Below the pieces are notes generated by a model, which had not been told where the DNA came from, ran no database searches, and saw only the letters and a program-made list of their open reading frames with translations. Below are positions 28,657 to 61,583 of a stretch of DNA of 64,000 nucleotides, one piece after another. The DNA lies in contig JAHBMJ010000366.1 in the NCBI GenBank assembly GCA_018398765.1, positions 1 to 64,000 on the forward strand, written 5' to 3'. The stretch's first letter is position 1. Each line of letters begins with the position of its first letter. The stretch comes from Chromera velia (Eukaryota > Sar > Chromeraceae). Both the position numbers and the translations under genes were made by a program.

Positions 28657-29991
28657 CTATTTGTCCCTCACTGGCATGCCAGTCCGCCGTGCGCTGCTTG
28701 CAGTGAAGTTGGGGATTGATGGAGCCATTGGATCCGATGCAACGACGGCCTGGTTTTGTACCAGCTGTGTGTGCGATTGAGTGCTGGCGGACGAAGCGCA
28801 GATGATGGTGGAGAGGCCATGGGTAGGGCTCTCGATATCGGACTTGAAGTAGGCTTGACTGTACCCGCACTCTACTTGAGGCAGCATACCTGTGCATGCA
28901 ATGAAGCGCTTGAGCTCGTCCTTCTGCCATAGTTGAACGTCCTTTCCATGTTTGGGGCGAGTGGACTTAGGTTGAAGCTTCTCCCTTTCAGGGGTGCTAA
29001 TGACAGACGCAAATCCACCTCGCTGAATGACCGACGCGTGGAATGCCAACAGATGCTCAGGCTCGATCACGTGCTCGATCACATCGGCGCTAATCACCAC
29101 TGCTCCCTGAACAATTGAATCCGGGATTGACGGCATGGCATCGAAGTCATTGATGTTCCACTCAATCGCTGCGAAACCCGCCAACGATTCGACGTTCTGG
29201 TTACGGTACCGCTCTGTGGCTTGGATTGCCTCTCTGGCAGCTTCTAAGTTGTCCTTGAAGTCTATGATGAAAAGGTTGAACCCCTTCCCGAACAGTGTGG
29301 CTGCCTTCCGCCCGTTTCCGCAGCCTAGATCTATGATCCACCCATTTGCTCCCTCCGCAAGCGAGTCGGCAAGCAGAGCGGCTGTATTGTAGATGTTGTA
29401 CTGGTGAATCTTCTCCGATCGTTTCTTTGTATCAAGGTCGTACTTCGGCTTCACGTTGCGCATGTAGTACTCTGGCAGGAACTTCCTTTCCTTCTCTTCA
29501 GCCGACACAGTCGCACAGAAGGAATCGAGGGGAGCGGCAGCTCCGCCCAACTGTGGCGCCTGTGCTGCTAGTGGTACCATCTGCGCGGTCTCCATGTTGC
29601 TCGGGCTGTGCAGTTCCGAGGCTGCGCTGGTTGAGGGCTCTGTGTTTGTGGGTGACAGGGGAGCAGCTGATTGTACAATGGGCGCTGCGATGCTTTTCCT
29701 GCGTGCGACATCCATTGCATCCGACCGAACTGTTCCTTCAAGCCTCGGCACAAGGTCTTCCCTTTGGAGAGGGACTGTCGACCGCTCTGGAGGGGGAAAC
29801 GGCGCAGTAACAATGCCTGCAGCAGTCATCCGAGATTCGTCAGACTCCGACGAATGAGGGCGAGAGGCCATTTGCATAAAGGTCAGAAAGCAGATAGTGG
29901 CCATGGCAACCAGGGCAAAAAGCTGCCACGAGAAGGGCCGGCGGAGGACGACTGCCATGTCGGTGATAGAGGTAAATTTCGGACTTTTCAA
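28657..29991 (-). CDS. Membrane-anchored class I SAM methyltransferase
   Basis: Single-exon frame of 444 residues ending in TAG. An N-terminal helix (about residues 20-42) preceded by Arg residues gives type II topology, so the enzyme should face the Golgi/ER lumen; a Ser/Pro/Ala-rich stem follows to about residue 160. The catalytic domain has SAM motif I DLGCGNG (221-227), an acidic motif II (IIDF, about 242-245) and the post-motif ADVIEHVIEPEHLL (302 onward), typical of UbiG/BioC-type O- or N-methyltransferases (Methyltransf_11/23 group). A second possible start is the Met about 11 residues in. Its place in a glycan cluster suggests methylation of a sugar, possibly the sialic acid, but the substrate is inferred from context only. 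It is divergently paired with the gene beginning near 30739. Confidence 0.8.
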   Translation of the reverse strand: MKSPKFTSITDMAVVLRRPFSWQLFALVAMATICFLTFMQMASRPHSSESDESRMTAAGIVTAPFPPPERSTVPLQREDLVPRLEGTVRSDAMDVARRKSIAAPIVQSAAPLSPTNTEPSTSAASELHSPSNMETAQMVPLAAQAPQLGGAAAPLDSFCATVSAEEKERKFLPEYYMRNVKPKYDLDTKKRSEKIHQYNIYNTAALLADSLAEGANGWIIDLGCGNGRKAATLFGKGFNLFIIDFKDNLEAAREAIQATERYRNQNVESLAGFAAIEWNINDFDAMPSIPDSIVQGAVVISADVIEHVIEPEHLLAFHASVIQRGGFASVISTPEREKLQPKSTRPKHGKDVQLWQKDELKRFIACTGMLPQVECGYSQAYFKSDIESPTHGLSTIICASSASTQSHTQLVQNQAVVASDPMAPSIPNFTASSARRTGMPVRDK

Positions 29992-30738
29992 TCAGACTCG
30001 CAGTAACTGTTGCCTATATGTGTTGCATGGGCCTCTTCGTTCAAAACATCAACCGTAAGAACTCACGTGTGAGATTGAGGCACGATTGACCCGTTTCAGC
30101 GACTACTTGCGCTACAAATAATCGGTTTGGTGCACACAACAGCACGAGAATCAATGTGAGGAGCTGTTCTATATATATTACGGGATACACGAGGCGACAG
30201 ATATATAGCAATACATATATATAGGTCAGTCATTTTCCTTTCTCGGCATGCATGCATGCATGGGGTTTTTGAGTTTGTCCAAATGCATGGGTGCATATTG
30301 GGGGAGACGCATGCGTGATCGCCGTGATCGACTCGCGATCTCTCTCATTTTTTTTTTTTTTTGCATTGTGTGGGGTCCATGCCTATACAGGCCGCCTGCA
30401 GTATATATACATATACACCTCTATGAAAGTCAAATCCACTGAGTGGATCCAACATTGAAGAGCACGCGGACAGGAAAGATCTGGCAGAGCCACAAGGCGG
30501 GAGACAGAACCATTCAATCCACTCGTCGAACAACTGCTGTTCATCGACGTGTTAATTGTCGGCATTGATCTGTACTGTCGTCCATTGATGTATATATATA
30601 TACTAGCTGCCGCGTATAATTGCGTTGACTTAATATTGATTCGACGTCCAACCCTGCTTTTGAGAGATCGCACATGGATTATTTCAACGAAAGAGAGCTG
30701 TTTCCGCTGTTCAGCAACGCTGGAGTACCTGAACTTGA
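29992..30738. promoter_or_regulatory. Head-to-head promoter region (methyltransferase / unknown gene)
   Basis: Contains GCATGCATGCATGCATGG at about 30246-30263, TATATA runs near 30170, 30205, 30405 and 30588, and a T-run at 30350-30361. The GCATGC palindrome is a known cis-motif class of apicomplexan AP2-regulated promoters; its role here is inferred. Confidence 0.45.
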
Positions 30739-34402: not shown

Positions 34403-34652
34403 TCAAATGACGCCGACCCAGTAGGCCGACCCATGACGTACGTTGCGAATTTGGCCAAGAAGAGAGCGCCACTCTGGAGACAGCTCTGTTTCGTTCATGT
34501 CCTTCCACTTGAGCCTCTCGTTGTACGCAGTTTCGTTGTGCATCAGCTCAAGGATCATATCTTCAAACTTTCTCATGTCCCCTCCTGCATGCATCAGGCA
34601 TCACACACACTCACATACATACATACACATGTATTCGAATATTTTATGTGTA

Positions 34653-34691
<39 letters not shown>

Positions 34692-35770: not shown

Positions 35771-37575
35771 CTTACTCAACTAAGGAAAGGTCGAGGAGGA
35801 AAAGAGAAGCCAAAAGTGTCAGAATTAATTGTTCTCTTGCACCCGCATGAGAAAAGGAGAGCGAGGTAGACATGCACTCAGGACTACTAAAAAAAAGTTT
35901 GTATCGACTGGCAGGCACACCGACCGACTCACCCTGCTTGGAGGCCTTCAAAAACTTTTTCACACACATAATCTTTCGTGATCGAATTTTCAAACACCAG
36001 ACAGAATTTGGATCTGCAAACAAACAAACAAAGAAACAAGCCTTCATGGGCAAACAGACAAACAAAGAAAGAAAGATAGAAAGAGGCAGGCAGATGTGCT
36101 GAGGTCACAGGATCAGGCTCGGCTCTCTCTATCCATGCCCTTTGGAGTCCAATTCTAACGATTCACAACCCGAAAAACGTATACAGCGAGAACGGTTGCA
36201 TGAGGCCACTTGTTTTCATGCACAGGTAATTTGTCAAACTCATTTAAACTCATGCAATTTATTTCTATCGATCGTTCTTTCTCTCTCGCGAATCGAATCT
36301 TATTTAGAGTGCACGAAGAAAAATGATATGCAGGGAGCAGGTGGGAGAATGAGAGAGGATCAATGTTAACTAGGGACCGTGAGAAATTTATTCTTGCACA
36401 AAGATACATACACAGTGTCGCCAGAATAACAAACAAAAGGAACGGATCGAGCATACACTGATCAGCCGCAGCGGCGCTCGAAGCTAGCCAGACTTTGTGG
36501 ATGCAAGTGAGACTCTGCCTCTAATCTTAGTGCGTGCAGCTAAACGTTTGTGCGTGTACCATGCAATGGATAGCATCCATCCCGCCCTGCTCATATGAGG
36601 CGAACTCGAACTCACAGCAGCCCCCCGAAGAGAATTTGCATCCATAGCATGGCGGCATGCAGTCAGGCAAGGGGATTTCAGCACAAGGAACAAACAGACC
36701 CTTCTCCCCCTTCCTCTCTCTGCCAGGCAAGGGGGTTTCAGCTCAGTTAAGGAACAAACAGATCCTGCTGCTAAATTCTTCCTCTCTCTGCCTCCCTCCG
36801 CTCTCTCTGTATCACTCACTCACTCACTCACTCACTCACTCACCCACTCGCTCCTTTATTCACTGACCGCCGAAAAGTGGCGATTTTGTCCACCTTCCTG
36901 CCATTTTTGGGACTTCGATCTCTGACGTACTCCTCCGAATTATGAAGGCACCTGCGCAGTTTTCCAAAAGAATGAATGAGCATGCATGAACGTTGTGCCT
37001 CTCATTTTTCAACACACAGGACTATGAACAAAAACAAACAGTGTTCCACACAAAATCACCACCCAGACGCCCATCCGATGTCAAAAATCTAAATTCCGCA
37101 TTTGCCAGCCAGACATCTAGAGCAAGAAGGGCCATGCCTTCGTATGTCATGGTTTTCGTTCGCTCATTTCGTCCTTCCGTTCTGCCCTTCCCCAGCCCCT
37201 TCTCTCACATTTTCGACCCTTGAATGTCCTTTTTTCGTCGATCTTTTCCCCGGTCCCATTTTTTACACGTGCATTGGATCTTCCCCATGTTCGCCCGTTT
37301 CTCGCAACAATCAGCTGTCGCTCTTTTTGCATGCATTTAGACAGACAGGCAGACAGACAGACAGACAGACAGACAGATCGAAGTCAAGCGAGGAAGGGAG
37401 GATGATGCATCTGGGCGATTGATCATGTATCTATCCATCTTTCTGTCTGTCTGTCTCACTGACTGCATGATCAACCGACTTACGCTCCAACGGCATCCAC
37501 TTGAACTCTCTTGTTCTCGATCATTTGCAGCTTCCTCGCGCGATCAATTCGCCGGTTGGTTCATGCACACACATA

Positions 37576-37617
<42 letters not shown>

Positions 37618-40600
37618 CATCCAACCGTGTATCCCGGACAGACATGTTTTTCTGTTTTACGCGGAAATCAGTGCAGCGTAAGGCTTTGATTTGACTCCCC
37701 GTCCAACCTCCCTCCCCAACTTCCTGTAGGAGGGATGGCGTTGATTCTCTTGGCGAGCGGGATGGACTATCGATCGATCGATCGATCGCACAATGTTATG
37801 CAATCAGCCGGCCTGTTTGAAGAAAGACAAACAAAGAAAATGCATCGTGGCATCCTGAGAAAAGAAAGCTCTTGAGCAGAACAGCTGAAGCAGTGAGAGA
37901 GAAAGAAAGCCAGAAAGAAAAGAGACGGTCCGGGATCTAGAAGACGATCGATCGAACATGGAAAGCCTCCCTCGCGTGGGTGTGCGGCAAGATGATGAGG
38001 AGGCACTATTTTGCAGTTCGGTTGATTGATGTTTTCTTTTCTTGTTTTCCGTTTCTCCTTTCTCCCTCCTGCCTCCCCTTTTTCTCTCTGTCTGTCTGTC
38101 TGTCTGTCTGCAAGTCTTTTTGTCCCGCCGTTGGCTTCCTTCCAAACTCTCATGCATGCATGGGGGCACCCACCTTCACGTAGGTTTCGCGCTTGCTTGG
38201 AGTGTCACAGTTGCCGTTGAGGAACACGACGGCGTTTCTTTTTTCGCTGAAGGGCAGAATGGGGTCCTGCAGAACGACCAGAAGGTCAAACAAACAGGCA
38301 GGCAGGCAGGCAGGCAGGCAAGAGTGGAAACATATCGATCTGCAAAAGTACCCAGAATGCTCACGAATGCATCGACACATACTATCACATGCAGACCCTG
38401 GCTGCAGCTGGACTCACTCGAGCAGGCAGTCGATCGTTCAATCATAATTAAAAGAAAAGAAACTGTCACTGAGCTTATATTGCAGAAACCCTAAGCAGGC
38501 GAGAAGGGGTTGGTGAGAAGGGCTAGGGACACAGGTATTGATAGTGAAGCACAAAGCGCCCACTCTCGCCCTCTCTCTCTCTCTCTCTCACAGTCTGTTG
38601 CACACCTTGGAGAGAGGACGGAACGACGAGAGAGGACAGAAGGGCGGAGGAATCAGTGAGGGCTACAGAAAAGGAGACAAGGTAAAAGATGGGGGGTGGA
38701 AAGAGAGAGACAAAGAATCGAATACGAAGGCAAACAAACAGTTGATCAGACAGAAAGTCAGACAGTCAGGCAGAAAAAAAGCAAGATCAACAAATGGATA
38801 GACACACATCCAGGCAGCTCCAAAGGAATGCAAAAATGCAAACATGGGGACATATGCAAAAACCAAGAAAGGTGGGGGGTACAGACGGCCACAGTCACAA
38901 CATCATCGATCATTCTGTACATATGTTTGTATTTGCATATGTATATAGATGTATGCGGCACTGGCGCCCCCAACCATGCACAGTTTGCCCTCAGTATTTC
39001 TTTCATCAATCGATGCACACACAGGCGACCACACCCGCATGTTCTCATCGATACCATCGTGTTGGATCGATCGCTCGAAAGGAAAGAAAGAAAGACTGCA
39101 TGCATATGCGCATGCATGCATGACTAAGCCCTTCGATCTACACAACTCACGTAGACCCTCTCGACCATCTTTGTCGTCAAACACGGCATCCACTTCTGCA
39201 GGCAGGCAGACAGGCAGACAGGCAGGAAGACAGAATTCATCGACGTATATAATATCCCTTCGATGACTTGTTGATCCTTTCGGTCCATAAGGAAGACAGG
39301 AAACCTCGATATCCGCGTGCGCAAACATGCAAGATAGGTTTCTTTTCCATATGCACACATAAAAATCTTGAGTCTGTGCTTGAGAGTCGACAATTCGAAA
39401 TGTGAGAAGATGCACAGAAAACAAATGCATCATCCATGAACGTACAAACGGCAACTCACGCGCACAGGCAAACAAAATTCTCTCTCTACACGCATGCATG
39501 CATGCATGATCGTCTTCCCAGATCCCTCCCTGACTCCTAATGGATCGATCGATCGATCTGCATCAGCACCCAGAAGCACCCTTTTCTTTCTTTTCCTTTC
39601 CTCTCCTTCCCTTAATGACTTTGCGTCCACAGAGACAACGTACACATTTATGCGATACCAAAATGGATCTCTGTTTCATTCCATACCACCCCGACACCGA
39701 GCCAGACCGACCGACCGTACTCTCCTTGAGGTACGTGGACGACATGTCAAATCTGCAGGGAGGAGGCATGCCATCAGTATACAAGGGGAAAGGGAACAAA
39801 TAGAGGAGGCAAACCTTCACAACGAAATTAATTCAAGTGTATGGAAGGAAGCATCCAAATGTTGATATCATTCCAAACCAACACATACAACGTCATGCGG
39901 ATGTGCTTCACTACATGACAGACCATCAGAAAAGCTGAACAAATGACTGTGGGCGGAGGTGACAGACCGACAAACAGGCAGATAGGCAGGCAGGCAGGCA
40001 GGCAGGCAGACAAACAGACAAAGAGACAGACAGCCAAACAGACAAAAAAGGGCGGACAAACAGACAGACAGATAGACAAACTGGCAAACAAACAGATAAA
40101 AAGACAATTACAGAACAGACACTCATGCCTGCATGACCTCAATGACCGACAGGCGCAAAAAATCCGGATTTCTGAAAGCCGGTACGCGAACTGCCGACTC
40201 GATCCCGGTGAGAGCCGTCATCTGCCAAGGGAATGTCTTCTGGAAGATTGGCCTCAATTCCTCCGAAGATCCTTTCAACCCGACAAACCCATGCCACATC
40301 AGGACCTCAGCATTTTGGTTGTTCTTGTACTTGGGATGTGTCCTAGAATAAACTTCGCATGGAACCCGGCAGCCCTGAAACGGTCCGTCCGGGTACCTCA
40401 AATGCGACCTTGACATAAACTGGACGGTCACAGTTTTGTTACTTATTACAGGGGTGACCGAAGAAGGCTCTGGTGACACGTCAGGGGTGATTGCGCCTTT
40501 CGATGAGGTCTCATCAGTCAGTGCAGCCTCTTTCGTAATGTTACGTGCACCCGCCGTTCCTCCGAAAGGCCGGTCTTCTCTTTGAGGCGAAATACCAGCA

Positions 40601-41555
40601 GAGGGATGACCCACTCCTTCTTCTTTGGGGGCAGCAGAAGGCGGGGACGTCTGCAAATTCTCCCCCCCCCCGGTCGTTGCAACTAGCTCTGGTTCCGTTT
40701 TTTCGGAGGCGCGGTCACCAGCCAAAAAGACGGCCCCTGGACCGGGCATCGCACCCGTTTTCGCTTCTCCCTGTGGCCGAAGTGATTTTGCTTCATTCCC
40801 CCCATGACTCAAACCAGCACCCCCTCCATCTCCCTCCTGTTGAGTCTGCAGCAGCTCACTCTTCGACGCCGACTGCTGCACGCCGACTTTCGTCAGTCCA
40901 GCAGTCTGGAGTGAGTTGTTGCCGTCTGCTGAACTGCTGTTCGCGTCCATTGAGGAGGAGGGGGCTTCTGCGGTCCTGGGCTGGAGGAGACCCGACGCCG
41001 CCCTCTCCCCCTCAGCCTCGTCTTCTCCTCCCGAGTCGGGCAGTCGTGCTCCGTCCGTCTTCTCCTCTTTCAAGGAAGCAGGGAACAAAGAAGGAAAAAT
41101 ACACACATTTACATACACTTCAGGCAGGAAAACACCGTCCGTCTCGCTGCGCATGCAAGGCGGAACGCGTACTCGCTCAAACTCAGTACCGCTTGCCTTT
41201 CTATATATGTATACGTGCATCCGTGCATTTCACAGAGTGTCGATATCATTACCCTGGACGGCAGCAATGGAGCCGACGTACCTCTTTTCGCTTCTTCGAG
41301 CTCACATACGACCTTCAGCCAGCACTCCGCGCCTTCAGGCTCACACTCTTCCTGAACAATCCGGTGAGTGCCCTCGCAGTGACGCAATGGAGAAGGAAGA
41401 GTTCCCTCTGGACGGAAACACACGTCTTTTGCACTGGGAATCGATTTCTCTTCCCCCAAAACGAGAAATTTGCGGACTTGCACGAACTGTCGCCAGTACA
41501 TGACAGAAAGGAGAACCAAGATGCAGGCGGCGCCAATGACGAAGCAGCGCGTCAT
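34403..41555 (-). CDS. GT10 alpha-fucosyltransferase-like gene B
   Basis: Paralogue of the gene at 133-5785. Secure exons in transcript order: 41555-41282 (membrane helix, residues about 4-20), 41066-40151 (acidic Ser/Pro stem, then TVTVQFMSRSHLRYPDGPF and NAEVLMWHG), 39752-39716 (FDMSSTYLKEST), 39195-39151, 38266-38174 (VVFLNGNCDTPSKRETYVK), 36013-35933 (FCLVFENSITKDYVCEK), 35227-35142 (NGPANIREFLPRPDAALDF) and 34584-34403 (MHNETAYNERLKW, stop TGA). Phases agree where exons are contiguous. One or two exons between 36014 and 38173 are provisional; 36600-36550 (MDAIHCM, aligning with VDAVGTC of gene A) is the best candidate. The Thr of the family's TEK motif is Cys here. The last exon might instead splice at a GTACGT within it. 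The GT10 family is sure; activity is uncertain. Confidence 0.85.
35722..35771. repeat. (CTGC)n microsatellite
   Basis: CTGC run in an intron of fucosyltransferase gene B. Similar runs lie at about 38297-38322 and 39985-40016. Confidence 0.85.
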
Positions 41556-43372: not shown

Positions 43373-43412
<40 letters not shown>

Positions 43413-43990: not shown

Positions 43991-44025
<35 letters not shown>

Positions 44026-47769: not shown

Positions 47770-48936
47770 TTAGAGCTGGCCCAGGACTCCCTCGAGGTGC
47801 TTCATCATCCTACTCACGGCATGACCGTCGCCGTAGGTGGTGTCCCTGTCAAATCTCTCCTTCGGGTGCTCAAGCAACGCCTGCAGCACCTCATCCGAAT
47901 TCTCCCCCTTCACGGAAAAGACGTTCGGCGGACAGGTGCGGCCCTGCTGGCGGGTCCCGACGTTGACTGCGGGTGTGCCGAAGAACGCAGCCTCCCTGAT
48001 GATCGCGCTGCTGTTGCCGACTATCGCCTTGCAGTTTTTCAGTAGAATGATGAACTCCTCGTGGGGGAGAGAGGTCATGCAGTTGACATTCTTGGAAAAT
48101 GTGGGGGAGGTTTTCTGAATTTCGTGGAGCGTCTGGATCATGTCTTTGCTCCCCGGGTCGATATTCGGGTAGAAGAGGATGGCACGTTCTCCCGTTCGGT
48201 CTACAGCCTCCAGGATCGACCTGTACTGTTTCACGGTGTCCTGGATACTGCAGGTGTCGGGATGGTACATGATGATGAAATATTCATGGGGGACTACTCG
48301 GTGAGTAACCAGCAGGTCTTCGGTCGAGTGTCCACTGCCGATATGTTCCATTTCGAGGAACACATCGTACGATGGACATCCGGTGCAGAAGACTGCGGAG
48401 TTTTCCTCACCCATTTCAATCACTCGCATCCTGGCTGCCTCCGTACATGTGAAATGAAGATCGGAGAGTTTCGATATCGAATGTCTCAGCTTTCCGTCAA
48501 TCGTTCCGGACAATTCCCCTCCCTCAAGGTGCACTGTGAAGATTTGCAACAAAGTGGAAGCAGATGCCACTCCGAAAGCGTCAAAACGGTCACCGTGCAC
48601 AATCACAATCTTTGGCTTAGCGAGGGCCAAAAACTGGGAGACCTTCAGGATGGTCAACGCCACCGAGTCGGCCATGTTGTTGGTATCATTCCCCGCCGCC
48701 ACGGTGGACACTTTGGTGGCACTCTTGGCGAAGTCCTTCTCCACAAGGCGGAAACTGTACCCGCTTTCAATCAGAAGATGACTGCCAATCACCAGTGGTA
48801 CAAGCTCAAACAGAGGAGACTTCTCAAGGGCAAGCATAAGGCCCCTCAACTTGGAATAGTCCGCTCGGGTGGAGGTAACAACACACACCTTGACGGGTTG
48901 CTCCATGGTGGTATTGTTCGCGCTCAAAGCGGCCAA
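47770..48936 (-). CDS. UDP-GlcNAc 2-epimerase, hydrolysing, NeuC/GNE type
   Basis: Single-exon frame of 388 residues. It follows the epimerase half of GNE/NeuC along its length: TSTRADYSKL near the N-terminus, VHGDRFDAFG (about 118), HLEGGELSGTIDGKLRHSI, CTGCPSYD, ILFYPNIDPGSKD, GNSSAIIREAAFFGTP and VGTRQQGR, ending with a YGDGHAVSRM segment as in GNE. The animal kinase domain is absent, so the likely product is free ManNAc, the substrate of a NeuB-type synthase, which lies next door. No signal peptide, so cytosolic. A second possible start is the Met about 10 residues in (MEQPVKVC). It is convergent with NeuA-NeuB and divergent from the oxidoreductase gene. A GDP-GlcNAc specificity (legionaminate route) cannot be excluded. 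Confidence 0.9.
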   Translation of the reverse strand: MAALSANNTTMEQPVKVCVVTSTRADYSKLRGLMLALEKSPLFELVPLVIGSHLLIESGYSFRLVEKDFAKSATKVSTVAAGNDTNNMADSVALTILKVSQFLALAKPKIVIVHGDRFDAFGVASASTLLQIFTVHLEGGELSGTIDGKLRHSISKLSDLHFTCTEAARMRVIEMGEENSAVFCTGCPSYDVFLEMEHIGSGHSTEDLLVTHRVVPHEYFIIMYHPDTCSIQDTVKQYRSILEAVDRTGERAILFYPNIDPGSKDMIQTLHEIQKTSPTFSKNVNCMTSLPHEEFIILLKNCKAIVGNSSAIIREAAFFGTPAVNVGTRQQGRTCPPNVFSVKGENSDEVLQALLEHPKERFDRDTTYGDGHAVSRMMKHLEGVLGQL

Positions 48937-49774
48937 GTGGAAGCAGACCTTTGACGTGAAAAGCTACCTTTCAATCTGAATTACCGGTCACGAAATTTTG
49001 TTGGTGCTTCGAGATTTCAGTTGGACGGTCTTTGTGCTGGAATCGGCTCCTAGATGAAGTTGTTGCATATACGTTGCATAGCCCGTCTGAGTGTTGCTGG
49101 AGGTGGCGATTCAAAGAGCAGGCCTGTGGGACGCGGGTAAGAAAGAAACAGACAATTCGGAGCGAAAACAAGGCAGTCTTCGTGAGAGGACAGAGGGACG
49201 AAACATATATATATATAGCTATATAGGTGGGCACGTATATATATATTTTTTAGTCGGGTGTTGTTTGCCTGACCTTTTTTTTGCAACATTTTACCGCCGG
49301 CCGGACAGTCGCATTATAGAGCCGATTAATTGTGCGATTGCATATATATTTAAGGGACAACAGCGTCCCCAACCGGCTCCTTAATTCTGCGGCGCAACGT
49401 ATACGTGCCCAACCTGCATCATTGCTTGCATGCATGTCCATGCACGGCGACTCCTCTCCATCTCCTCTCCTTCTTTCCTGTCTGCCTCTTTCTGTCCTCC
49501 CTGTCTCGATCCTTCATCCGTGCCGGCCACTTTGAAATTCCTTTCTGTCTGTCTCATGGTCCTGACCGGACCTATACATATATATGTATGGAATATGCAC
49601 ATCAGATAATTGACGGTTGTGGAGGTGTCGGACTGCATGTCTCGAACATCGTCGAAAATCCTTGTGCATGTGGGATTGAATTGGCCTTTCATCAATTGAA
49701 ATTTCTCTAGAGTTTCACGGACTCTTGCACCGCGAAAACGAAGGCAGGCGTTTCGGATCGGAATCCTGTCCGAT
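48937..49774. promoter_or_regulatory. Head-to-head promoter region (NeuC / oxidoreductase)
   Basis: TA runs at about 49204-49217, 49237-49248 and 49573-49586, and a TTGCATGCATG block at about 49426-49436. Confidence 0.45.
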
Positions 49775-50968
49775 ATGACCGACGTAGACGGGGTCTGGTT
49801 GATCGGGTGTGGGAAACATGCGATCCACTATGGCAAAATCTTGGGGCATCTGGGGAGAAGCTTTCTGGTCATTGGGCGTGGAGAGAACTCAGCCAATGAA
49901 TTCCTGAAGAAGTTCGAAGAGGCATGCCCAGACGTGAAGTCTCTGCCTGAAGTCAAATTGGGCGGACTCCAGCAGTTTCTCTCAACGAAGCCACCGATAT
50001 GCGGAAAGGCGATCCTTTGCCTGCCTGTCGAAAACCTGGCCTCCGCAACCTATCAACTGATCCGGTACGGTGTGAAAGACATTTTGGTGGAGAAACCCCT
50101 CGGGAAGAACAGCTCTGAGCTGGACCGACTGGTGAAGGTTTGTGAAGCGGAGGATCACAGGCCGCGGGTCTTTGTCGCGTACAACCGCCGTTTCTACGCA
50201 TCCGTCACTCAAGCAAAGGCTCTGATAGAGAAGGAAGGAATCCTCTCGGCAAAGCTGGACTTCAGCGAGAGGACAGACCAACAGGCGTTGAGAGTTCCTT
50301 ATCTTTTGGTTGGTCGGTTCCTGCAGAGAGCACAAAATTGTGTCCGTTTTCGTCATCTTGTGATATGCTTGCATCTATTCTTTTGGTAATTTCCCGGTCT
50401 GTTCCTTTCCCCTTCAAACTAACACTTGTAATTTATGCAGGGAGAAGTGCACAAGTAGTTTTGCCCTGCTCTTCTATGCAGATGGGCAACAGCTCACACA
50501 TGCTGGATGTCCTTTTTTTCCTCGCCGGCATGCCCGTGGAGCTGCACCCCAGCCACTCGCATAGCGGGGACCTCGATTTCTTCCCTGGGCCAAGCGTGTT
50601 TGTCGGTCACGGGAAAACAGACAAAGACGTGAGCTTCTCGTACCACGCAAACTGGAACTCTGCTGGGCGGTGGGCTGTCGAGGTCATAACCCGAGAGAGA
50701 AAACTTATCCTCAGTCCCGTGGAGAAGCTGCAGGAGGTGGGCAAGATAGATAGACCGTCTACGCTCGCTCTCATGATCTGCCTTCTAGTGCGTCCCTCTT
50801 CCTGCCACCCTGCATTCCTCTTTGCCAGACTCGCCGTCCACCCCACCTTTCTATGTCTGTCTCCCTGCTTTCCTGCCTGCCTGCTTCCGTGCCAGAGAGG
50901 CGAAGGCATGCGTGCCACCTCCGGGCCGTTAGTAAATTGCCTTGAGACTGCGCTCTCTTGTCCTGTTT

Positions 50969-51005
<37 letters not shown>

Positions 51006-51006
51006 C

Positions 51007-51042
<36 letters not shown>

Positions 51043-52972
51043 TATGTGCGTGTGTATGTGCGTGTGTGTGTGTGTGTGAGAGAGTGCAGATGCCGAAAGG
51101 AACGTTCAATCTCAGCGAGGTGGACCCGGGCGAGTTTGCAGGCGCGTACAAGAGAGACCAGGTCTTCAAACCGGGTCTCTTCGATCTCACGGAGGCCTTT
51201 TTGAAGTTGAAGGAGGGGGACTTGCCGCCTCCCTCTCTGCCTTCGGTTGAAGACCAGCTGGAGCTGGTTCGGTACTACGAGCGGATTGAGGGTCAGAGGA
51301 GCGACAGTCAGGTGTGGGTGGTCGGCTGTGGAAACATCGGTATGAGACATCTGCAGGGGATAGCAAAATTCAAGGGCGCGCCCTTCACCTTGAAAGTGGT
51401 GGAGAAAAGCGATGAAGCCCTGCAGAAGGCATCCAATGCCTTTCATGATGAGGCAAAGAAGGGGAGCGTGGATCACATCTTGGTCCCCTTCACCGACTGT
51501 GCCTCCCTTGTCGGGCAGCAGCCTGTCGATGCAAACGTGATTTTGATCGCAACAACAGCAGACGCAAGGTTTCAAGTCCTAAAAGAACTTTTCTCGGCCG
51601 AGGTGGGGGACCCTTCATCGTTCATGCCGACGAGGATCCTCATTCTTGAAAAGGTGAGCTGGGGGGGGAGGGAGGGAGGGAAAGTTTGCAAGACAGAGAG
51701 GGGACGAGAAGCCACGCAGACGGGGAGAGGCGGAAGGAAGGTATGAAGGACGTCCTCTTTGTGTGTTTAGATTGGGACGGAGAGCTAATTTGAGGAACTA
51801 CAGAGAAAAGACATGCAAAGTGTGAGAGGAAATAGAGGAGAAGAGGAAGCGCGTGCGAGACGGTGAGAAGAGTGAGGAGAAGGAAAGAAAAAAAGTCGAG
51901 AGGCGAAGAATGCAAGAAGAAAGAGCAAAACGGGGCAGGCAGATCAAGTGGAGGAGAAAAAAGAGACAGACAGGTGAGTAAGTTTAGCATGCAAGGAAGA
52001 GAAAGAGTGCGAGGGTGAAGAGAAAGGAAAGCTTTCGGGAAAAGAAAGGAACGTAAAAAGAATAAAAAATGGACACAAAAAAAAATAGAGAGGTTGAAAT
52101 GAGGACATCTTCCCTCCCTGTTTCTTTCACAACTGCATGCAGCCTCTGTTCCAGAGAGAGAGGGACTACGACGAAGCCCCCCATCTGTTCTCGCGTCTCG
52201 GTCTGGACGTCTACGTCCACCTCCCCCACCGCATCCACCCCCATATCCTCCAGTTCAAAGACAAACTTGCTGCTGCTGCTGCACAGGTACGAGACGAGAC
52301 GAAACGAAAAATGAAAAGCCACTAGATGCATTCATTGGAGAAGAGAGAAACAAAGAACATGGATAGATCGTGAGAATAGACCGCTGCATGCTGCTTGGTG
52401 TATGGGCTGTATCAAAGAGTGAAGAGGCAAGATGACACGTGTGGAGGCGTAACTTTCTCTCTCAAAAGCGTTTGATTCCTGCTCGTTTGTCTGTCCGTGA
52501 CATGCAAGCTTTAGATGTATGCGATACCTCATGCTTCACTGCCCTCACGGTCGGGTCTCTTTCCTTTTTGTACCTCAAACCGTCTCAATCGATCCATCGA
52601 TCCTGAATGTCTTCAGAAGAGAAACATCGATCTGCATGGTGTTCGCTGCTTATTTCTCTTCTCTCTGTCTCTCTCTCTCTGTCTCTCTCTCTCTCTCTTT
52701 TTTGTTTTTAATGCATGCATGCATGCATGCGCCTGCCTGCCTACCTGGGTGCCTGCAGGAGCCTGTGCACATGAGGTATGGGGGTTTCCACTGGGGTCTG
52801 GGTTGCAATGGCATCCACGGTCTGGACCTGTTTTTGATGATGAACGGCGAGGTGGGGCGACCGGACGACCTCCAGTTTGACAACTCAATGGTCAGAATGA
52901 AGCTCAAAAGAAAGAAAGCGCATAGATCCATGCGTAGTAAGGCTTTGATTCAAGACGCAACGCAAGTATTGA

Positions 52973-53009
<37 letters not shown>

Positions 53010-55477
53010 CGATTGATTGATTGATTCTGCCTAGACCCGGCCGGCACATGGGACAATCAGGGAGGCAGGCAGGCAGGCAGGCAGGCAGACAGACGGACAG
53101 GCAGGAGGCCGCAGGGGCAGGCGCAAAGGATTGAGTGGGGACTTTGGGACAAGCAGACAAGCAAGTCAGGGAGACAGACCGGCACTGCTACTTCGATTAT
53201 GAGCCTCAGAGGGACTTTCTGTCTCTCTCTCTCTGTCTGTCTGCCTGTCTGTCTGTCTGTCTGTCTATTTGTCTATCGCGTTGCGTTCTTCCCTGAATTC
53301 AGGTCAGAGAGGTCCTGCCTGCCAAGCGAAAGGGAGCCTGTGAGTTTCTCGGGGAGCTCAAGGTGACGCACCCTAACGGTGCTGCGTTGACACTCGTCAG
53401 TGGGTGGGTGGGAGGTGAAGGGGATAGCCTGGTCTGGCCTGGTCTGGTGGGGCTGGCTGGCTGGGTGCATGGGCTGTGTGGGCGGATCTGACTCTTCCTT
53501 GGAATGAAGTGAAGGAAAGAAAGAAAGAAAGAAAGACAGACAGACAGACAGAAAGAAAGAAAGAAAGAGACAAGGAGAGAAAGAAAGAAAGGAAGAAAGG
53601 AAGAACGAAAAAATTGATTCAGCCCTTTGGGAAATGCTGTGGACTTTCGCTTGATCGAGTGAACAACTGACTAGAAAAAAAAGAAGATCACGCCCTCTGT
53701 GGCTTACTGATTCTGTATCCCCAAAAAGAGATGGACATACACGTGTCTGCAGTCGTTTCTGTCGTGCTCTTCTTGTATCAGTATCAACAGTGCTGGATTG
53801 TGTGCCTGCGCGTCTGAAACGAAAAAGCCGTTCCTTTCCTTTCCTTTGCGACCTTTATGCACGTAAACCGACCGTCTCCGAATTAACGATTGAATTGCAG
53901 CTTGCTGCTCTGAACCTTGCCGTCAATTGAATTGAATTGGCATATAACCGTGCAGTGTTGTGCTCCATACAGCTCTACATGATCTGATATATCGATCCCC
54001 CCACCTCTCTCTCTCTTCCCCCTTTGCCTCAGTGGAACGACGTACCACCTGAAGAGGGGAAGCATAACGCGCTCGAATACGAGCTCGATTCTGCATCCTG
54101 GAAGGGGGTCTTCAAGAACGGCAAGTAAGTAAGGAAGTCGGTCGGGAGGGAGGGAGGGAGGGAGGTGTTCCTTTAAAGGCCCTTGCTGGTGGATGACCTC
54201 CGATCGAGGCCCTTCTTGTCTCTCATTCCTGCAAAAACTCCTTCAGAATTCTGCATGTAACCCCTTCCTTTCTTCCTTCCTTCCTTTCTTCTTTCCTTCC
54301 TTTCTTCCTCCCTTCTGTCTTTCTTCCTTCCTTTCTTCCTTCCTTGCTCCTTCATTTTCTGGTTGCTGCTTTGCTTCCTTTTTTTACTTCCCTCTTGCAG
54401 GTGGAAGGTTGGAAAAGACCTGAACAACCCCGAGCGTGAAGAAACACTGGGACACCCATACGTAAGTCGCATTTTTGTTCTTGTTCACGCTTTGCTCCTC
54501 CGAACGACGTCACGGCCTTTTCCTTGTCCCCTCCCTGTTTCTTCTGCTCCCTTCCCTTACCAGTGAACCCTAAATTTAAATTCACAACAAATCGCCTTCC
54601 CTCTCTCCCCTCCTACCCCCTTGCCCGAGGAGCCCGTGAGAGAGAGAGAGAGAGAAACAGACAGACAGACAGACAGACAGACAGATTGACAGATAAACAG
54701 AGAAATATGCAGATTCGAAATCCCCCCCCCAGCTTCCTCATGAGAAGGTCGCTTCCCTCCCTCCCTCCCTCGACCCAACCTCTTCATGGCCATCTCATGA
54801 ATTGTTCACAAAACGCATGCAGCAACGCGAATGGGTGCATGGTCTCTCCGACTGACTTTTTCTTTCTTGATTGTGCGCAGGTCTCCGAGTCAAGCCTCAT
54901 TTGGTTCTCGCAGTGCCTCAGAGACAAGAGGTGGGTGGGTGCATTGGCCGACAGTCTGCCTCTCGATCCACACACAAAAAAATGATTCGCATGCGTTGCT
55001 TTCATGAACCCTTTTGCTTGTGTTTGTTCGGTCCTCTCGACAAGTCCTCGATCTGTGAGGAAATTCATCTTGCTGCCCGTGAAGAAGTCTCTGCGGATCT
55101 ACTGAATGCATTCAGATCCTCTCCTCACACTCCCAACACGCAAGCGTGTCCATCCACTCCACTTGATTTCCTGTGTTGTCTACGAAGACCGCCGGAAGGA
55201 AGAATTTGATGTTGCATGGACTGTACGCAGCCATCAAACCGACGTGGTTGAGTGATTGTCGCACGCGCTTGCAGGTGCGCCCTCCCGACCTACATTTAAT
55301 TTCATAAAAAAGTAAATGCACGTACGCGCTTGCAGGTGTGCCCTCCCGACCTACGCACAGGTGGCGCCAGCGGCTGTCGGCCTTCACCGTTCGCTTCTAC
55401 AAGTCTTTAGAAAGAGCCCGAATCCAGAAGCAATCTCCGGGCCTGACCTCGAACCCGACTGTCTGCCGATCACTTAA
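49775..55477 (+). CDS. Double-domain Gfo/Idh/MocA-type oxidoreductase
   Basis: Ten exons, 49775-50308, 50482-50736, 51090-51653, 52143-52286, 52759-52890, 53303-53395, 54033-54124, 54401-54461, 54881-54930 and 55336-55477 (TAA), all in phase, giving 688 residues. Two complete NAD(P)-binding units lie in one chain. Unit 1 starts VWLIGCGKHAIHYG and has the family's EKP motif in ILVEKPLGKN, with YNRRFYAS after it. Unit 2 starts VWVVGCGNIGMRHL (about residue 313) and has ILILEKPLFQ, the EKP crossing an exon junction, then GGFHWGLGCNGIHGLDLF. Such enzymes oxidise or reduce sugars, and related genes accompany NeuB-type loci in bacteria, so a step in making or modifying a nonulosonic acid is likely but unproven. 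The C-terminal part after residue about 500 is less conserved to my eye. Confidence 0.88.
50970..51080. repeat. (TG)n microsatellite abutting an acceptor
   Basis: TG/TGTGCG run that ends about 10 bases before the splice acceptor at 51088-51089. Confidence 0.9.
52971..53026. repeat. (TGAT)n microsatellite
   Basis: GATT/TGAT run in an intron of the oxidoreductase gene, followed by a GGCA run at 53063-53088. Confidence 0.9.
53515..53608. repeat. (GAAA)n / (GACA)n microsatellite
   Basis: GAAA and GACA tetranucleotides in the intron after the exon ending at 53395. Confidence 0.9.
55262..55360. repeat. Short TIR element C with duplicated splice acceptor
   Basis: Two copies, differing at one base, of a 31-base block containing ACGCGCTTGCAGGTG (about 55262-55292 and 55324-55355). 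The second copy is the true acceptor and start of the last oxidoreductase exon. Between them is an insert of about 30 bases that begins ATTTAATTTCATA and ends AAGTAAATGC, echoing the ends of elements A and B. Confidence 0.65.
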
Positions 55478-56560: not shown

Positions 56561-56584
56561 TGTTGTGCCCTCTGAATACCGCTG

Positions 56585-58086
56585 TCACGAATAAGTCGGG
56601 CATCGCACGAGATATGGATGTGGTGCAAGGAAGAACGATTCAAGATTTGCTGCCACGACAGCCTCAGCAAAATCAGGGTCTATACATGAGTACTCCTTCG
56701 CGAGAGCCTCTGAAAGATACTTGGGGAACTCTGATCGAGAAAAAAGTGCCTTGGTCGTTTCGTCTCTTTGGCATGGTGACTGGCCTGCATCAGTTCCCTG
56801 CCAGTCCTTTCCGAGCTTTCTGTATAACTGTGCGTACTGCGAATCCGGTGACCCTTTCAAGTCATAATTCCCAGCCCCGAAATCCCTTTTGAGAGCTTTG
56901 AAATGGAACCACGCGTTCACGAACGTTCTCCCCACCTTCCCTTGTCCAGACAGTTTCTCACAGCGGCCCCCTTTGATGTAGACGGTCTTCTGGCTGATGC
57001 GGTGGAGAATGCAATCACCATTACCATTGGTCGGCCTCGTTGCCCACACACACGGGACGCCCTTTCCCCCCGGATCTCTTATCAGGTTGACTCCTTTGAA
57101 GCTCAGCGGTCTGAAATTGCTCTCTGGCAAATCAAGCAGTGTCTCCCGAGCATTCTGCATTGCTTCTCCAAAGACTATCGGGTTGAGAATCGTGTCGCCA
57201 TCCAACTTAATGGCATGCGAGAAGCGTGCACGACTCATGCAGAAGTTGTAGTAGTTCACCAGAGAGTGCGGGCTTGTTGGCGGTAGACTCAAGAACTCTT
57301 TTGTGCCTTGACCATAAACCTTAGCCATGTACTCGAAGACCTTTAGTTTTTTTTTGTCCTTCTCTTCAGGGGATGCCAAGAGTTCTCGTAGCCTGTCCTC
57401 TGTGCAGTCCGAGCAGTCGTTGAAGCAGACGACCACTTCATCGAGAAAATCAATCGCAGACATCACGGCACCGCTGATAAATTCACATTCATTCCTCACG
57501 CGAAAGTAACCGGTGATGCCCCTCTGTCGATCGGATTCTTTCAACATCGACGTCTTAAATTCGAAAGTCTGGACCCGCACAATGGGGTCGGTACTATTGG
57601 CGACATTAGCGGAATGTTGGAAAGGGAGAGCGGCTGCTCAGCCACGCTGCTCCCTGCTGGAAGCCCCACCGCTATGCTCTCTGTGCCCGTCCCCGTGTCT
57701 ACAGAAAGCAAACTAGTGAGGCTGCTGTTGATGCTGCTGGCACTGGTGGGGGCGACGGTGCTGCTGTTGGAGGCCGTGGCAGTGGTGCTACTGCTACTGC
57801 TATCGCTACTGCGCCGAATGCTACTGGTGGTGCTGCTGGCGTTATTGATTCTGACAGCAGGTTCCAGAAACGCCTCCCAAGGTTCCGACCCAGGGGGGGC
57901 AGCCTTGTGTCGGGCCACAAGCTCAGGGTCAACAAATGAGGACTCCTGCTTGCTCAATTGCGAGGGATCGAGCGTGCCTTTATCGTTCTCCACAAGCACG
58001 GACGAAAACCGCACAGTGGAGTGGAAGATGAAGAGGGAACAAAGGATGACAAATAGGAAGGGAAGCATGACAGACCGCCGCCTCAT
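56585..58086 (-). CDS. GT2-like glycosyltransferase, type II membrane protein
   Basis: Two overlapping minus frames form one probable gene. The upstream frame (58086 to about 57590) gives a basic start, a membrane helix (about residues 7-24) and a Ser/Thr-rich stem with polySer. The downstream frame (about 57625 to 56585) gives the catalytic domain: ITGYFRVRNECEFISGAV and DEVVVCFNDCSDCTEDRL, typical of a GT-A nucleotide-binding fold, and HAIKLDGDTIL with the DxD-type metal motif DGD. The frame change lies in the 57590-57640 overlap; no convincing intron fits there, so it is a short unusual intron, a sequence error or a real frameshift. Similar domains are found in bacterial GT2-like enzymes; donor and acceptor are unknown. 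It is divergently paired with the sialyltransferase gene. Confidence 0.75.
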
Positions 58087-59040
58087 TTTTCACCACCCAC
58101 AGAAGAAAATACAACAACAAAAAAGCCCGTGCAGTTAGACAGGGGGCGACTGCCTTCGGGCAGTCGGTCGATCTAAATCGATGAACCCGATCGAATTCTC
58201 GGCAAATGGCAAATCACGTTTTTGGTGCATGGATCACATCGTTCTTTCGATCGAGCATCTGAACGCTGGTCGCGGCTTCCAGCTAGACGAACGCCACCGG
58301 ACAGACAGAAATCCAGACGGGCAGCTATATATATATATATATATATATAGACATGCAGGCAAGTATTTTTGCAGTCGATCTTGCAATGTGCATGCATGCA
58401 TGAATGTATCGGTTTCTTCTTTTAGAATTATAGACTGACAGATGTGGCTAAAAATGTTACTATATTAAGGAGGCACACCCAACCTCAGGTGAGTGCCTTA
58501 TTGGGTGTTCTGACACTCATGCAGGCTCTGCGTGGCTCCGTCAAATCACGCGCGCGTCGATATATTTATATCCGCAATTATATATATATATATATATATA
58601 TAAGTAGAATTTTTATGCGAATTTCCGCTCATGCAGGGCCTCGGATTTACCCGAGCTGCCCTCCGAGGACGCACAAACTTAATTCTCATGCATGCACACT
58701 AGCTTGCCTTCGCGCGCGAATACGCGCGAACAAACTAAAAAAATAAATCGATATCGTGTCTCTCTCTCTCTATATATACATGCAGATGCAAAAATATATA
58801 TATAAATTAAAGAGAGACAGTCAGTGTCAGTCACTGCTTGAAAAACGATCCAGCAGCGGATTCTTCTGAACGCAAAACAATCCAGAAAGGTGTCGGAGCG
58901 CGACTGTCATCACTGGTGGAAGGCAGGAAGGAGTGGAAAAGTGGAAGTGGGAAGCAGTCTGTTGTACAAAAGGTTTGTACGGGCATGCAACCCGATGTCC
59001 CCGGGGACTGAGCCCTTTTTGTAGACCCGTCTTTCTAGCA
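58087..59040. promoter_or_regulatory. Head-to-head promoter region (GT2-like / GT29)
   Basis: TA runs at about 58324-58350, 58578-58604 and 58769-58805, with GCATGCATGC at 58390-58400 and CATGCATGC at about 58687-58696. Confidence 0.45.
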
Positions 59041-61583
59041 ATGATTAGACTGAATCGCTGCGGTTGCCGGTACTTGATCTGCATCGCGCTTTTCGTGGCC
59101 GTAGTCAACACATTAGTGGGTTTGCAGCTGTTGAACGGCACTGAAATTCCATTTTCAATCGTCCCCTACCAGACTGAGTGCAACTGCACTGCCGCAGTTG
59201 CAGAAGCAGTTGCAGCCGTTACAGCTGAAGCGGCAAGAGAGAGGGAAGAAATCTTGGCTCGTGTTGCAATGCAGGCACAGGCAGCAGCCGAGTCGACGCC
59301 GCCGGAGCCACCGATCCCAAACAAAGCAGCGGGGACGGGGAAGAAGACGCAGCGGCAGCCTGCTGCACAGAAAAAAAAGAAAGTAGTGCTAAATGAGGAG
59401 TTACTGCCAACAGGCCTAAGTATTTGGGAGGTTCCCACAATCTCACGGAGAATAGCCGATTTGCCCTGGTCGAATCTGACCGCTTTCCGTGCGGCTTTCC
59501 CCAACGATACAAGTAGCTCTACGATCAAGCGGGTTCGCGGTACGCACGACTACGGGGCCGAGGAGCAACTTCGCAGCTTCTTCATCCAGCACGGCCTCGC
59601 GAACTTGCGATTTCCGGGTGTGAACGCCACGCAGCGGGTGGAATGGGACCGCCCTCCGTTGTTAGGGCTCCTGGAAGGGGAATTGAAGGGTCCTGTGCTG
59701 GACCACGTGGCGGCGCCCAAAAACGGTCGCCTTCCCTTTTCGATCCCTTCTAAACTTTATGATCAGTGGAAAGGACTGGTGAAGGGCCTGCTGGAGAAGA
59801 GACCCAGATTCCATCTTGACTCCACAGTGCCGAAGGGATCTGAGTATCCCACCTGTGCTCTCGTGGCCAGTGGTCCGGATATGCTCAATGCGAAGTTTGG
59901 CGCAGAGATTGATGCTCATGATGTGATTTTTCGGATGAACTGCGCTCCTGTCAACGGCTTTGAGTCTCATGTAAGTTTGAGAAGGAAAGAACATTCTAAT
60001 CAATCTGTCAGTGACGCCTTTGAAGCTCAACGAGTGAGTGGGAGAGTCAGTCAGTCAATCCGTGAGTTAGTCATCAGTCAGTCAATTTGTGTATGTATTC
60101 ACGGACAGCGATTCTGCTCTTGGTGTTGTTCGTTTTTGAATCGTCGGCTTCCTTCCACATTCTCTCTCAATCGTCCTTTGAAAAGGTCGGTCTCCGTGCC
60201 TGCCTGCAGGTTGGCTCTCGCACCACCTTCCGCACAACATATCCGGAAAGTACGAGGCAACTGAAAAGGCACTGTGAGAGTGACTCGACCGATCTTAAGA
60301 ATGAAACAAAAACTGACATATGGTGTGAGGGTATCGTCGACCTTCCGTCAGAAGGGGGCACAGTCATTGGGATGGTATTTCACCCACAAAACCTGGAGTA
60401 TTACCACTGTGGGGCTCTGGGATGTCCAAAAAGTTCCAAATACAAATTCGCAACAGAGTACGTGCCCTACAGCGCGGACACGTTTACAGTCCTGAATCCA
60501 GAAGTAATCTGGATCGCACAGAGACTAGTCCCACGAAACGAGACGCAGGGATGGCCTTCTGCGGGGGGGATTCTGGTGGCGCTGACAGGATTGGTAGGTC
60601 ACTCAGCGCTTTCAACGGCCTCTCTCACTCTGTCTTCTTTCTTTATGTGTGCCTCTTTATTTTCATGTCACTTTCTTTTTGCATTCATGATTACCAGAAC
60701 CCTAGTCTATGCTCGTGACATCGTCTCTCTAGATTTTCTTCATCGCTTATCTCTCTCTGTCTAGATGCTCGTGGCAGTTGTTGTCTCTCCTCTTTTTTCC
60801 CCTTTTGACTTTTGTGTTTCTGTGCGTCTGTACCGACCTCTCTTTGTCTTCTCCTTTCCTTTTTCGCTCCCTCTCCCCCCCACCCCCCCNCCCCCCTCTC
60901 TCTCTCCCTCTCTCTCCCTCTCTGTTTCTCTCTCTGCCTCCCTGTGCCGCTCTGCATCTCTCCACGTCCGCGTCTGAGTCGGTCTTCTCATGCGATTTCT
61001 TTGAGCTTGTTTTCTCTCCATCTCTCCATCCGTCGACCCATCCATCCATCAATCCATCCATCCATCCGTCCGACTCTGTCTACCCGAATTTCCTTCTGGC
61101 TCTCTCCCCCTCTCCCTTTTCTTCTTCTGCTTGCGCACATTTTTGAGGGTCCAGCTGACGCCTGTTTTTTTTCGCTGGACTTGTGAATGAATTGGGTGTT
61201 TGCGTCGACTGATTTCTCTCCCTCCCTCCCTCCTTCTTTCTGCATGTACATACGTGTTACAGCGGTTTCACATTTATGATGCACTTTTCTTTTGTATCAG
61301 ATCGGAAAGAACAAAAACAAAAGTTCAAACGTTTACTGTGCCAAAGTTGTCGGATGACCAGTCTCTGAAGATTTATTGAATAAAAAAGGAGAAAAACGTG
61401 AATTGCTGTGTATGCATCCTTGATCTTTGTTTTTATTTGTGATATATGCAGGTGTGTCGGTCGACAACCCTCTATGGGTTTCCCAGCTCATATGCTGAGT
61501 ACTCACTTAAAGGACATGAAGCAATCAAAGAGTCTGACTTTGTTCGAAGGTGGCACTACTATGATTGTGGCGTGGCCACATAG
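59041..61583 (+). CDS. GT29 sialyltransferase
   Basis: Three exons, 59041-59970, 60210-60593 and 61452-61583 (TAG), giving 481 residues. A short N-tail and membrane helix (about 11-31) make it type II; an Ala/Glu-rich stem follows. The L-sialylmotif starts near residue 272 (CALVASGPDMLNAKFG, then EIDAHDVIFRMNCAPVNGFE) and crosses the first intron into VGSRTTF. The S-motif is GWPSAGGILVALTGL (about 424 on), continuing across the second intron to VCRSTTLYGF. Motif III is HYYD near residue 473, only eight residues from the stop. A VS-like H-x4-E (HEAIKE) lies before, not after, HYYD. It should transfer sialic acid from CMP-sialate in the Golgi, matching the CMP-sialate synthetase 13 kb away. One N lies in the second intron. 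Confidence 0.9.
60857..60935. repeat. C/CT-rich low-complexity tract with one N
   Basis: Poly-C and CT-rich sequence with an ambiguous base at 60890, in the second intron of the sialyltransferase gene. Confidence 0.85.

Follow-up and report, generated by a model that had tools for sequence, protein, structure and literature searches.

Clustered Genes in the Nuclear Genome of the Alveolate Chromera velia Probably Make a Neu5Ac-Type Sialic Acid and Attach It to Glycans

The nuclear genome of the alveolate Chromera velia contains what is, in our judgement, quite probably a eukaryotic gene cluster for making and attaching a sialic acid of the N-acetylneuraminic acid (Neu5Ac) type. The cluster is located in the stretch of DNA analyzed here, called the window, which comprises bases 1 to 64000 of a 129,206-base contig (JAHBMJ010000366.1, or C365) from an assembly of 177.8 Mb in 4040 contigs. 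Between 42.3 and 61.6 kb, the window encodes a NeuA-NeuB fusion, the epimerase NeuC, a fused pair of Gfo/Idh oxidoreductases, a GT2-like glycosyltransferase, and a GT29 sialyltransferase, while genes of the fucosyltransferase family GT10 and a methyltransferase lie to the left. Judged from the sequence, the core reads best as a complete route from uridine diphosphate N-acetylglucosamine (UDP-GlcNAc) to N-acetylmannosamine (ManNAc), a Neu5Ac-type sialic acid, its cytidine monophosphate (CMP) form, and finally a sialoglycan. Bacterial-type synthesis genes are found beside an animal-type attaching enzyme, an arrangement expected of bacteria and not of eukaryotes.

The Cluster in the Genome

The original prediction, made from the letters of the window, had described a clustered nonulosonate route of ten genes in a protist nuclear genome, spanning positions 28657 to 61583. 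Both borders hold, the left one being the end of the stop codon of the methyltransferase gene (minus strand) and the right one that of the GT29 gene, and so does the clustering, in a genome that bears introns and with no second locus found for the four diagnostic families. The family calls for NeuA, NeuB, NeuC, GT29, the methyltransferase, and GT10 are backed by Pfam or NCBIfam matches. The number of genes has to be lowered to eight, including a second GT10 gene (GT10-1), with NeuA and NeuB forming one fused gene.

When the 177.8 Mb were searched exon by exon, GT29 (PF00777), NeuB (PF03102), NeuA (PF02348), and NeuC (PF02350) gave one locus each, all in the window; genes split into very short exons could escape such searches, and part of the genome may be missing from the assembly. 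The four families correspond to three genes, whose loci, each the sole one found, lie within 20 kb, and the chance of such closeness under random placement is about (40 kb/177.8 Mb)^2, or about 5e-8. A joined query of the Gfo, methyltransferase, and GT2-like proteins had no match in the genome outside the window at E <= 1e-3. Non-homologous pathway genes are co-located and found nowhere else in the genome, as in other eukaryotic gene clusters, with the exception of GT10, for which five matches represent four apparent genes, two in the window and two on other contigs. Since the only CTP_transf_3 locus found genome-wide is the NeuA-NeuB gene, no separate CMAS or Kdo (3-deoxy-D-manno-octulosonic acid) enzyme was found. 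Carriers of the SLC35A family (PF04142) exceed the cut-off on six contigs, none of them C365.

Six of the eight genes are paired head to head, with strands alternating along the locus; the pairs are GT10-2/NeuA-NeuB, NeuC/Gfo, and GT2-like/GT29, whose start codons are 711, 868, and 954 bases apart, respectively. A bacterial operon would have its genes on the same strand and without introns; here the strands alternate and introns are present, and the locus is a eukaryotic cluster rather than an operon. The reading frame is kept across the introns of the three modelled genes, four in NeuA-NeuB (all GT-AG), five in exons 1-6 of Gfo, and two in GT29, and TGCAG occurs at 10 of the 11 3' splice sites, which were picked during modelling. 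As a side observation on introns, TGCATGCAG is enriched in the window (8 found, 0.7 expected). Measured in steps of 2 kb, the GC content of the window ranges over about 44-54%, with plentiful simple repeats. A search of the assembly for psaA and psaB, aimed at a plastid code that reads UGA as Trp, gave no match.

The NeuA-NeuB Fusion

The NeuA-NeuB gene (42267 to 46175, plus strand) is modelled as 579 amino acids in five exons (42267-43158, 43475-43526, 44062-44199, 44692-44875, and 45702-46175) with zero internal stops. Because exon 1 holds NeuA together with the start of NeuB, the fusion is present in the DNA itself. The NeuA domain matches PF02348 with 99.1 bits (cut-off 22.6), while the NeuB domain matches PF03102 on three of the five exons and is accompanied by a SAF domain. 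The best match of NeuB in the PDB is Neisseria SiaC (1xuu), with 417 bits over residues 235-577, i.e., 343 residues, which amounts to full-length homology.

In the matched bacterial loci of Alistipes, Moritella, and S. meliloti, neuA, neuB, and neuC adjoin, and NeuA and NeuB taken together are 47%, 48%, and 42% identical to those of the window, respectively. A NeuB tree of 62 rows, with 61 of the 122 bacterial NeuB rows (the best 40, then every fourth), groups the window with loci L025 and L066 (97/94). The window NeuB also clades with loci L011, L013, and L014, apart from more distant bacterial NeuB; these three are annotated as sialic acid loci, one of them next to a gene of a polysialyltransferase family. 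NeuA is directly 5' of NeuB in all three and in 8 of 11 loci picked by NeuB. Genomes were also sampled by phylum: 395 from that of L092 (Cytophagaceae), 398 from that of L033 (Colwellia), and 379 from that of L025 (Daviesbacteria), which we take to be Bacteroidota, Pseudomonadota, and Patescibacteria. The best NeuB identities were 58%, 56%, and 69%, respectively. Three genomes of the last phylum, one being that of L025 itself, have a NeuB 64-69% identical to that of the window, which, by this measure, is nearest to Patescibacteria among the phyla compared.

The NeuC Epimerase and Its Kinship with GNE

The putative hydrolysing UDP-GlcNAc 2-epimerase of the NeuC type (47770 to 48906, minus strand) is encoded by a single intronless open reading frame (ORF) of 378 amino acids, and it exceeds the cut-off of the hydrolysing-NeuC equivalog TIGR03568 (343.6 against 235.9 bits). 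Its best PDB match is the epimerase domain of human GNE, with 272 bits against 157.5 for diacetylbacillosamine epimerase. The GNE-type kinase domain is absent, as the ORF stops at the epimerase domain.

The NeuC tree of 65 rows, 63 of them drawn from 97 bacterial NeuC rows (the best 45, then every third), groups the window with the human GNE epimerase domain (100/99), and the same grouping (99/98) is found in a tree of 50 rows that includes more rows of the L025 phylum and excludes the long rows of L148, L053, and L071. Both the window and the GNE branches are long. In retests by a quick method, the window falls in no well-supported set when GNE is removed, and GNE falls only in a set of 17 rows when the window is removed; furthermore, GNE is 41% identical to the bacterial row L175, versus 38% to the window NeuC. 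The grouping agrees with the proposal, found in the available part of Petit 2018 (PMC5811610), that the epimerase passed from alveolates to deuterostomes.

The Fused Gfo/Idh Pair

The double Gfo/Idh gene (49775 to 55300, plus strand) encodes domain A followed by domain B, with six exons modelled to 53398 and the later ones, as far as about 55.3 kb, identified by visual reading. Exon 51090-51653 carries the C-terminus of Gfo A and the N-terminus of Gfo B, while the border of exons 1 and 2 is uncertain, with about 11 residues of the bacterial relatives missing (16 in the query used). Both domains of the predicted double oxidoreductase are below the cut-off of PF01408 (18.5 and 18.2 bits versus 24), yet they align to bacterial pairs and keep the invariant columns. 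The E-K and H..D positions, presumably catalytic in Gfo/Idh/MocA proteins, do not vary in alignments of 23 rows (A) and 17 rows (B) that contain the window sequence. Profiles made from the bacterial relatives and the window row match the solved structures 9azo PmdC (6e-8) and 3gdo yvaA (8e-8) for A, and 8qc2 Gfo/Idh/MocA (1e-7) for B.

The first Gfo exon matches 3 of 72,556 plasmid records, L012, L015, and L020: the match in L012 is annotated among nonulosonate genes, that in L015 has NeuB and NeuC ORFs nearby, and that in L020 has a NeuB-family gene about 9 kb away. From GTDB, 400 contig stretches matched the patterns and yielded 215 relatives, of which the best 80 were kept; GfoA was itself the fetching query, and some of the loci are cut by contig ends. 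By tblastn, these 80 loci contain GfoB in 74 cases, NeuB in 58, NeuA in 56, and NeuC in 55; 47 of them have the full set of five. The GfoB-GfoA pair is widespread in bacterial nonulosonate loci across many phyla (L021-L100).

Two linked oxidoreductases suggest the oxidation and re-reduction of one carbon. A literature search of titles and abstract openings found no function assigned to the Gfo pair of nonulosonate loci. As for precedents, the parts available of two reports on Acinetobacter describe additional genes by the legionaminic module that are presumed to determine which C7/C8 epimer is made (PMC5595891, PMC9676051), and those of a third describe a cytidylyltransferase-reductase that, with a short-chain dehydrogenase, leads to 8-epipseudaminic acid (PMC12053666). 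These genes offer a precedent for redox epimerisation, but the families named there are short-chain or aldo-keto, not Gfo/Idh.

Glycosyltransferases, Methyltransferase, and Other Neighbours

The GT29 gene (59041 to 61583, plus strand; exons 59041-59970, 60210-60593, and 61452-61583) encodes 481 amino acids with an N-terminal hydrophobic segment. It matches PF00777 with 44.8 bits for the first exon and 95.2 bits when spliced (cut-off 23). The GT29 motifs go by the names L, S, III, and VS. The L and S motifs predicted earlier are recognisable, L aligned to a solved alpha-2,3-sialyltransferase and S only in the weak second domain; the model has HYYD near its C-terminus, and no VS sialylmotif was recognised after it in this model, whose stop is followed by an assembly gap. 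The gap, a run of N within poly-C at 61639-61663, is just past the stop, and the C-terminal end of GT29 could be incomplete. The GT29 query had no match among the plasmids.

The putative GT2-like transferase (56588 to 58086, minus strand) has an N-terminal hydrophobic segment and a change of frame near 57.54-57.64 kb that implies an intron. No match to it was found in Pfam, NCBIfam, PHROGs, or the PDB, and the call is based on tblastn matches to Brachyspira glycosyltransferases (best E 4e-12, 36% query coverage). GT10-2 (35931 to 41555, minus strand) is a partial, multi-exon model that probably continues past 35931 at its 3' end, with PF00852 at 35926-36015 (24.2 bits, cut-off 23.9); visual inspection suggests additional exons at about 38270-38176, 37545-37484, and 36953-36870. 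The second GT10 gene placed further left by the original prediction is indeed there: GT10-1 (126 to 5758, minus strand) matches PF00852 at 126-215 with 35.4 bits (same cut-off), has an ORF for an N-terminal exon, and is near the contig start or truncated by it.

The intronless methyltransferase gene (28657 to 29958, minus strand; 433 amino acids) encodes a class I S-adenosylmethionine-dependent enzyme (PF08241, 24.9 bits, cut-off 21.2) with weak Azospirillum matches (E 4e-10, 47% covered). By eye, the methyltransferase, GT2-like, GT10, and GT29 proteins all have a hydrophobic N-terminal stretch, a feature of type II Golgi enzymes. Searched against the 80 bacterial loci, the GT29, GT2-like, methyltransferase, and GT10 N-terminal-exon queries gave nothing at E <= 0.01. 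A long multi-exon gene with Sushi/CCP-like repeats, read from the ORFs at 10348-25440 (plus strand), lies between GT10-1 and the methyltransferase; among the three of its exons compared with Pfam, 12553-13107 gave Sushi in two stretches, and 16504-16923 and 18652-19179 gave none.

The 5' regions shared by the head-to-head pairs are 41556 to 42266 (GT10-2/NeuA-NeuB), 48907 to 49774 (NeuC/Gfo), and 58087 to 59040 (GT2-like/GT29). They contain (TA)n tracts at 42062-42083, at 49206-49217, and at 58326-58349 and 58579-58602, respectively. Others are at 6017-6038 and 6221-6239, before GT10-1, and at 30591-30602, about 630 bases before the methyltransferase, so that all seven (TA)6+ tracts of the window are upstream of glycan genes, a pattern spotted after the fact. 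Seven loci on other contigs of the same genome, not chosen for their 5' regions, have none. Another locus of this genome (L018, contig C11) has a GC content of 36%, versus 46-53% in the other own-genome loci examined, and is possibly foreign DNA. Two of the three head-to-head regions share a 16-mer, GCCTGACCTTTTTTTT (41901-41916 and 49267-49282), whose core, TGACCTTTTT, has exact copies in the window only at these sites; when one mismatch is allowed, the core has 12 matches where 7.7 are expected, which does not exceed chance.

Proposed Pathway and Alternative Explanations

We infer the core steps from the named enzyme families. NeuC would hydrolyse UDP-GlcNAc to ManNAc, which the NeuB half would condense with phosphoenolpyruvate to free sialic acid with no phosphate step, and the NeuA half, on the same polypeptide, would convert it to CMP-sialic acid. 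An SLC35A-type carrier encoded elsewhere would move the latter into the Golgi, where GT29 would add sialic acid to glycans. The Gfo/Idh pair may, with low confidence, oxidise and then re-reduce a carbon of the side chain or of a precursor, altering its stereochemistry, and the GT2-like, GT10, and methyltransferase proteins may build or decorate the same glycan. The bacterial-type genes would have come by transfer, NeuA-NeuB and Gfo would then have acquired introns, and the genes would have ended as head-to-head pairs that could share promoters. Localisation, co-regulation, and the route of transfer are proposals, as are fucosylation, methylation, the Gfo chemistry, and co-expression.

The origins look mixed: NeuB is nearest to Patescibacteria, NeuC and human GNE group together, and a Gfo pair is characteristic of nonulosonate loci in bacteria. 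Because the ancestries of the parts differ, they seem unlike one operon moved whole, unless later mixed. A viral source was considered and rejected, as scans of IMG/VR for NeuC and NeuA-NeuB, by exact 8-residue patterns of low sensitivity, gave no relative. Among 50,697 phage records, three matched NeuA-NeuB, one of them a Moritella contig.

A number of results weigh against a joint Neu5Ac-type programme. NeuB is below the cut-off of the NnaB equivalog TIGR03569 (361.6 versus 399.65 bits), as is a Daviesbacteria NeuB 67% identical to it (381.7 bits), and the closest NeuB relatives (L202, L203, and L025) have no NeuA next to NeuB. A NeuB like that of the window (at least 55% identity) is found in just 5 of the 58 GfoA-picked loci with NeuB, and a control of 11 loci picked by NeuB has NeuA and NeuC in all 11 and the Gfo pair in one; on these two counts, the Gfo pair is weakly tied to NeuB of this type. 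L025 and L066 were themselves retrieved via GfoA, and the idea that a Gfo pair accompanies the closest relatives of this NeuB was rejected, being based on GfoA-fetched loci and at odds with that control. Promoter words common to the three head-to-head regions (the third taken as 58090-58932) are not above chance: three 8-mers are common, with as many or more in 51 of 300 random triples, and there are no common 9-mers. Finally, GT29 also occurs outside eukaryotes, according to the available part of Petit 2018 (PMC5811610).

The top profile of NeuA is PseF (157.7 bits, itself below the cut-off of 205.7), which also favors another nonulosonate, legionaminic-like or Kdn (3-deoxy-D-glycero-D-galacto-nonulosonic acid), as the sugar transferred by GT29. 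The LegB and LegC genes of L012, an annotated bacterial locus with the Gfo pair, point the same way, and Kdn is known from microalgae (PMC6200933, in part). We regard this as unlikely, since NeuB stands apart from the NeuB of most Gfo loci and scores as noted with Neisseria SiaC, NeuC is nearer to GNE than to diacetylbacillosamine epimerase, and, in the same source, the Kdn-9-phosphate synthase of Prymnesium parvum takes mannose-6-phosphate and not ManNAc. Much less probable still is a Kdo route, with NeuA-NeuB supplying a GT29 that acts as the Kdo transferase proposed for land plants: Petit 2018 (PMC5811610, in part) proposed such a shift in streptophytes, but here a single CTP_transf_3 locus was found, and its partner in the fusion is a NeuB of the sialate type.

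A serious contender, somewhat short of even chances, is that the NeuA/B/C-GT29 core is one pathway while GT10, GT2-like, and the methyltransferase are accidental neighbours serving other glycans. The long, repeat-rich intergenic stretches, the two GT10 genes on other contigs, and the intervening Sushi-repeat gene would fit this, whereas the head-to-head placement of the GT10-2/NeuA-NeuB and GT2-like/GT29 pairs speaks against it, as does the lack of second copies found for the methyltransferase and GT2-like genes. That the contig is bacterial contamination or a chimera is barely conceivable, even with a NeuB so similar to that of three genomes of the Daviesbacteria phylum and a published Chromera assembly from which bacterial scaffolds had to be removed (PMC4501334, in part), given the introns of NeuA-NeuB, Gfo, and GT29, the recurrent TGCAG ends, and the presence of GT29, GT10, and Sushi-repeat genes on the same 129-kb contig.

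Relation to Known Systems and Significance

The cluster resembles the neuABC loci of Moritella viscosa, an Alistipes plasmid, and S. meliloti pSymA in having NeuA, NeuB, and NeuC, with NeuA directly before NeuB, but here NeuA-NeuB is fused and spliced, NeuC is on the opposite strand, and GT29 is linked. It shares with the GfoB-GfoA loci of a Sphingomonadaceae plasmid (L012), Daviesbacteria (L025), and Sulfurovum (L021) the presence in one locus of both Gfo/Idh genes, NeuB, NeuC, and mostly NeuA; there, however, the Gfo genes are separate, B before A (A before B in L020 and L089), rather than fused as A-B, and the NeuB is mostly of another type. With the animal GNE-NANS-NANP-CMAS route it has in common GT29 and a NeuC that groups with the GNE epimerase domain, although its epimerase ORF has no kinase domain, its genes are linked, and its NeuB is nearest to bacterial NeuB in a comparison that covered bacterial NeuB.

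Among microalgae, de novo nonulosonate synthesis was already reported for the Kdn route of the haptophyte Prymnesium parvum (Wagstaff 2018, PMC6200933, in part), where the synthase differs as noted above and "cluster" is absent from the main text available. The C. velia GT29, perhaps the same one, and the idea of a bacterial-type sialic acid route in alveolates were already reported by Petit 2018 (PMC5811610), whose available part does not mention a gene cluster, a NeuA-NeuB fusion, or a Gfo pair. The main text, as available, of the chromerid genome paper (Woo 2015, PMC4501334) contains neither "sialic" nor "glycosyltransferase", and a search of titles and abstract openings found no eukaryote reported to have the cluster, the fusions, or the Gfo pair.

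A wider reading is, for now, doubtful: synthesis of sialic acid, its redox remodelling to a non-standard form (such as a side-chain epimer or an O-methyl derivative), its activation, and its transfer in the Golgi may make up an entire programme that an alveolate keeps in a single nuclear cluster of head-to-head gene pairs. Bacterial and eukaryotic parts would have been combined in it, and its epimerase would be akin to the source of animal GNE. For the more modest and quite probable reading, a cluster that makes and attaches a Neu5Ac-type sialic acid, the single linked locus, for which no second copies were found, means that a few knock-outs or enzyme assays could settle whether an alveolate alga makes sialic acid, and the locus would be an example, in a eukaryote, of a cluster whose product can be predicted. 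A step that modifies the sugar, frequent among the nonulosonate loci of bacteria, is suggested by the fused Gfo pair, and the locus is relevant to where the GNE epimerase of animals came from, which the available part of Petit 2018 (PMC5811610) traced to alveolates.

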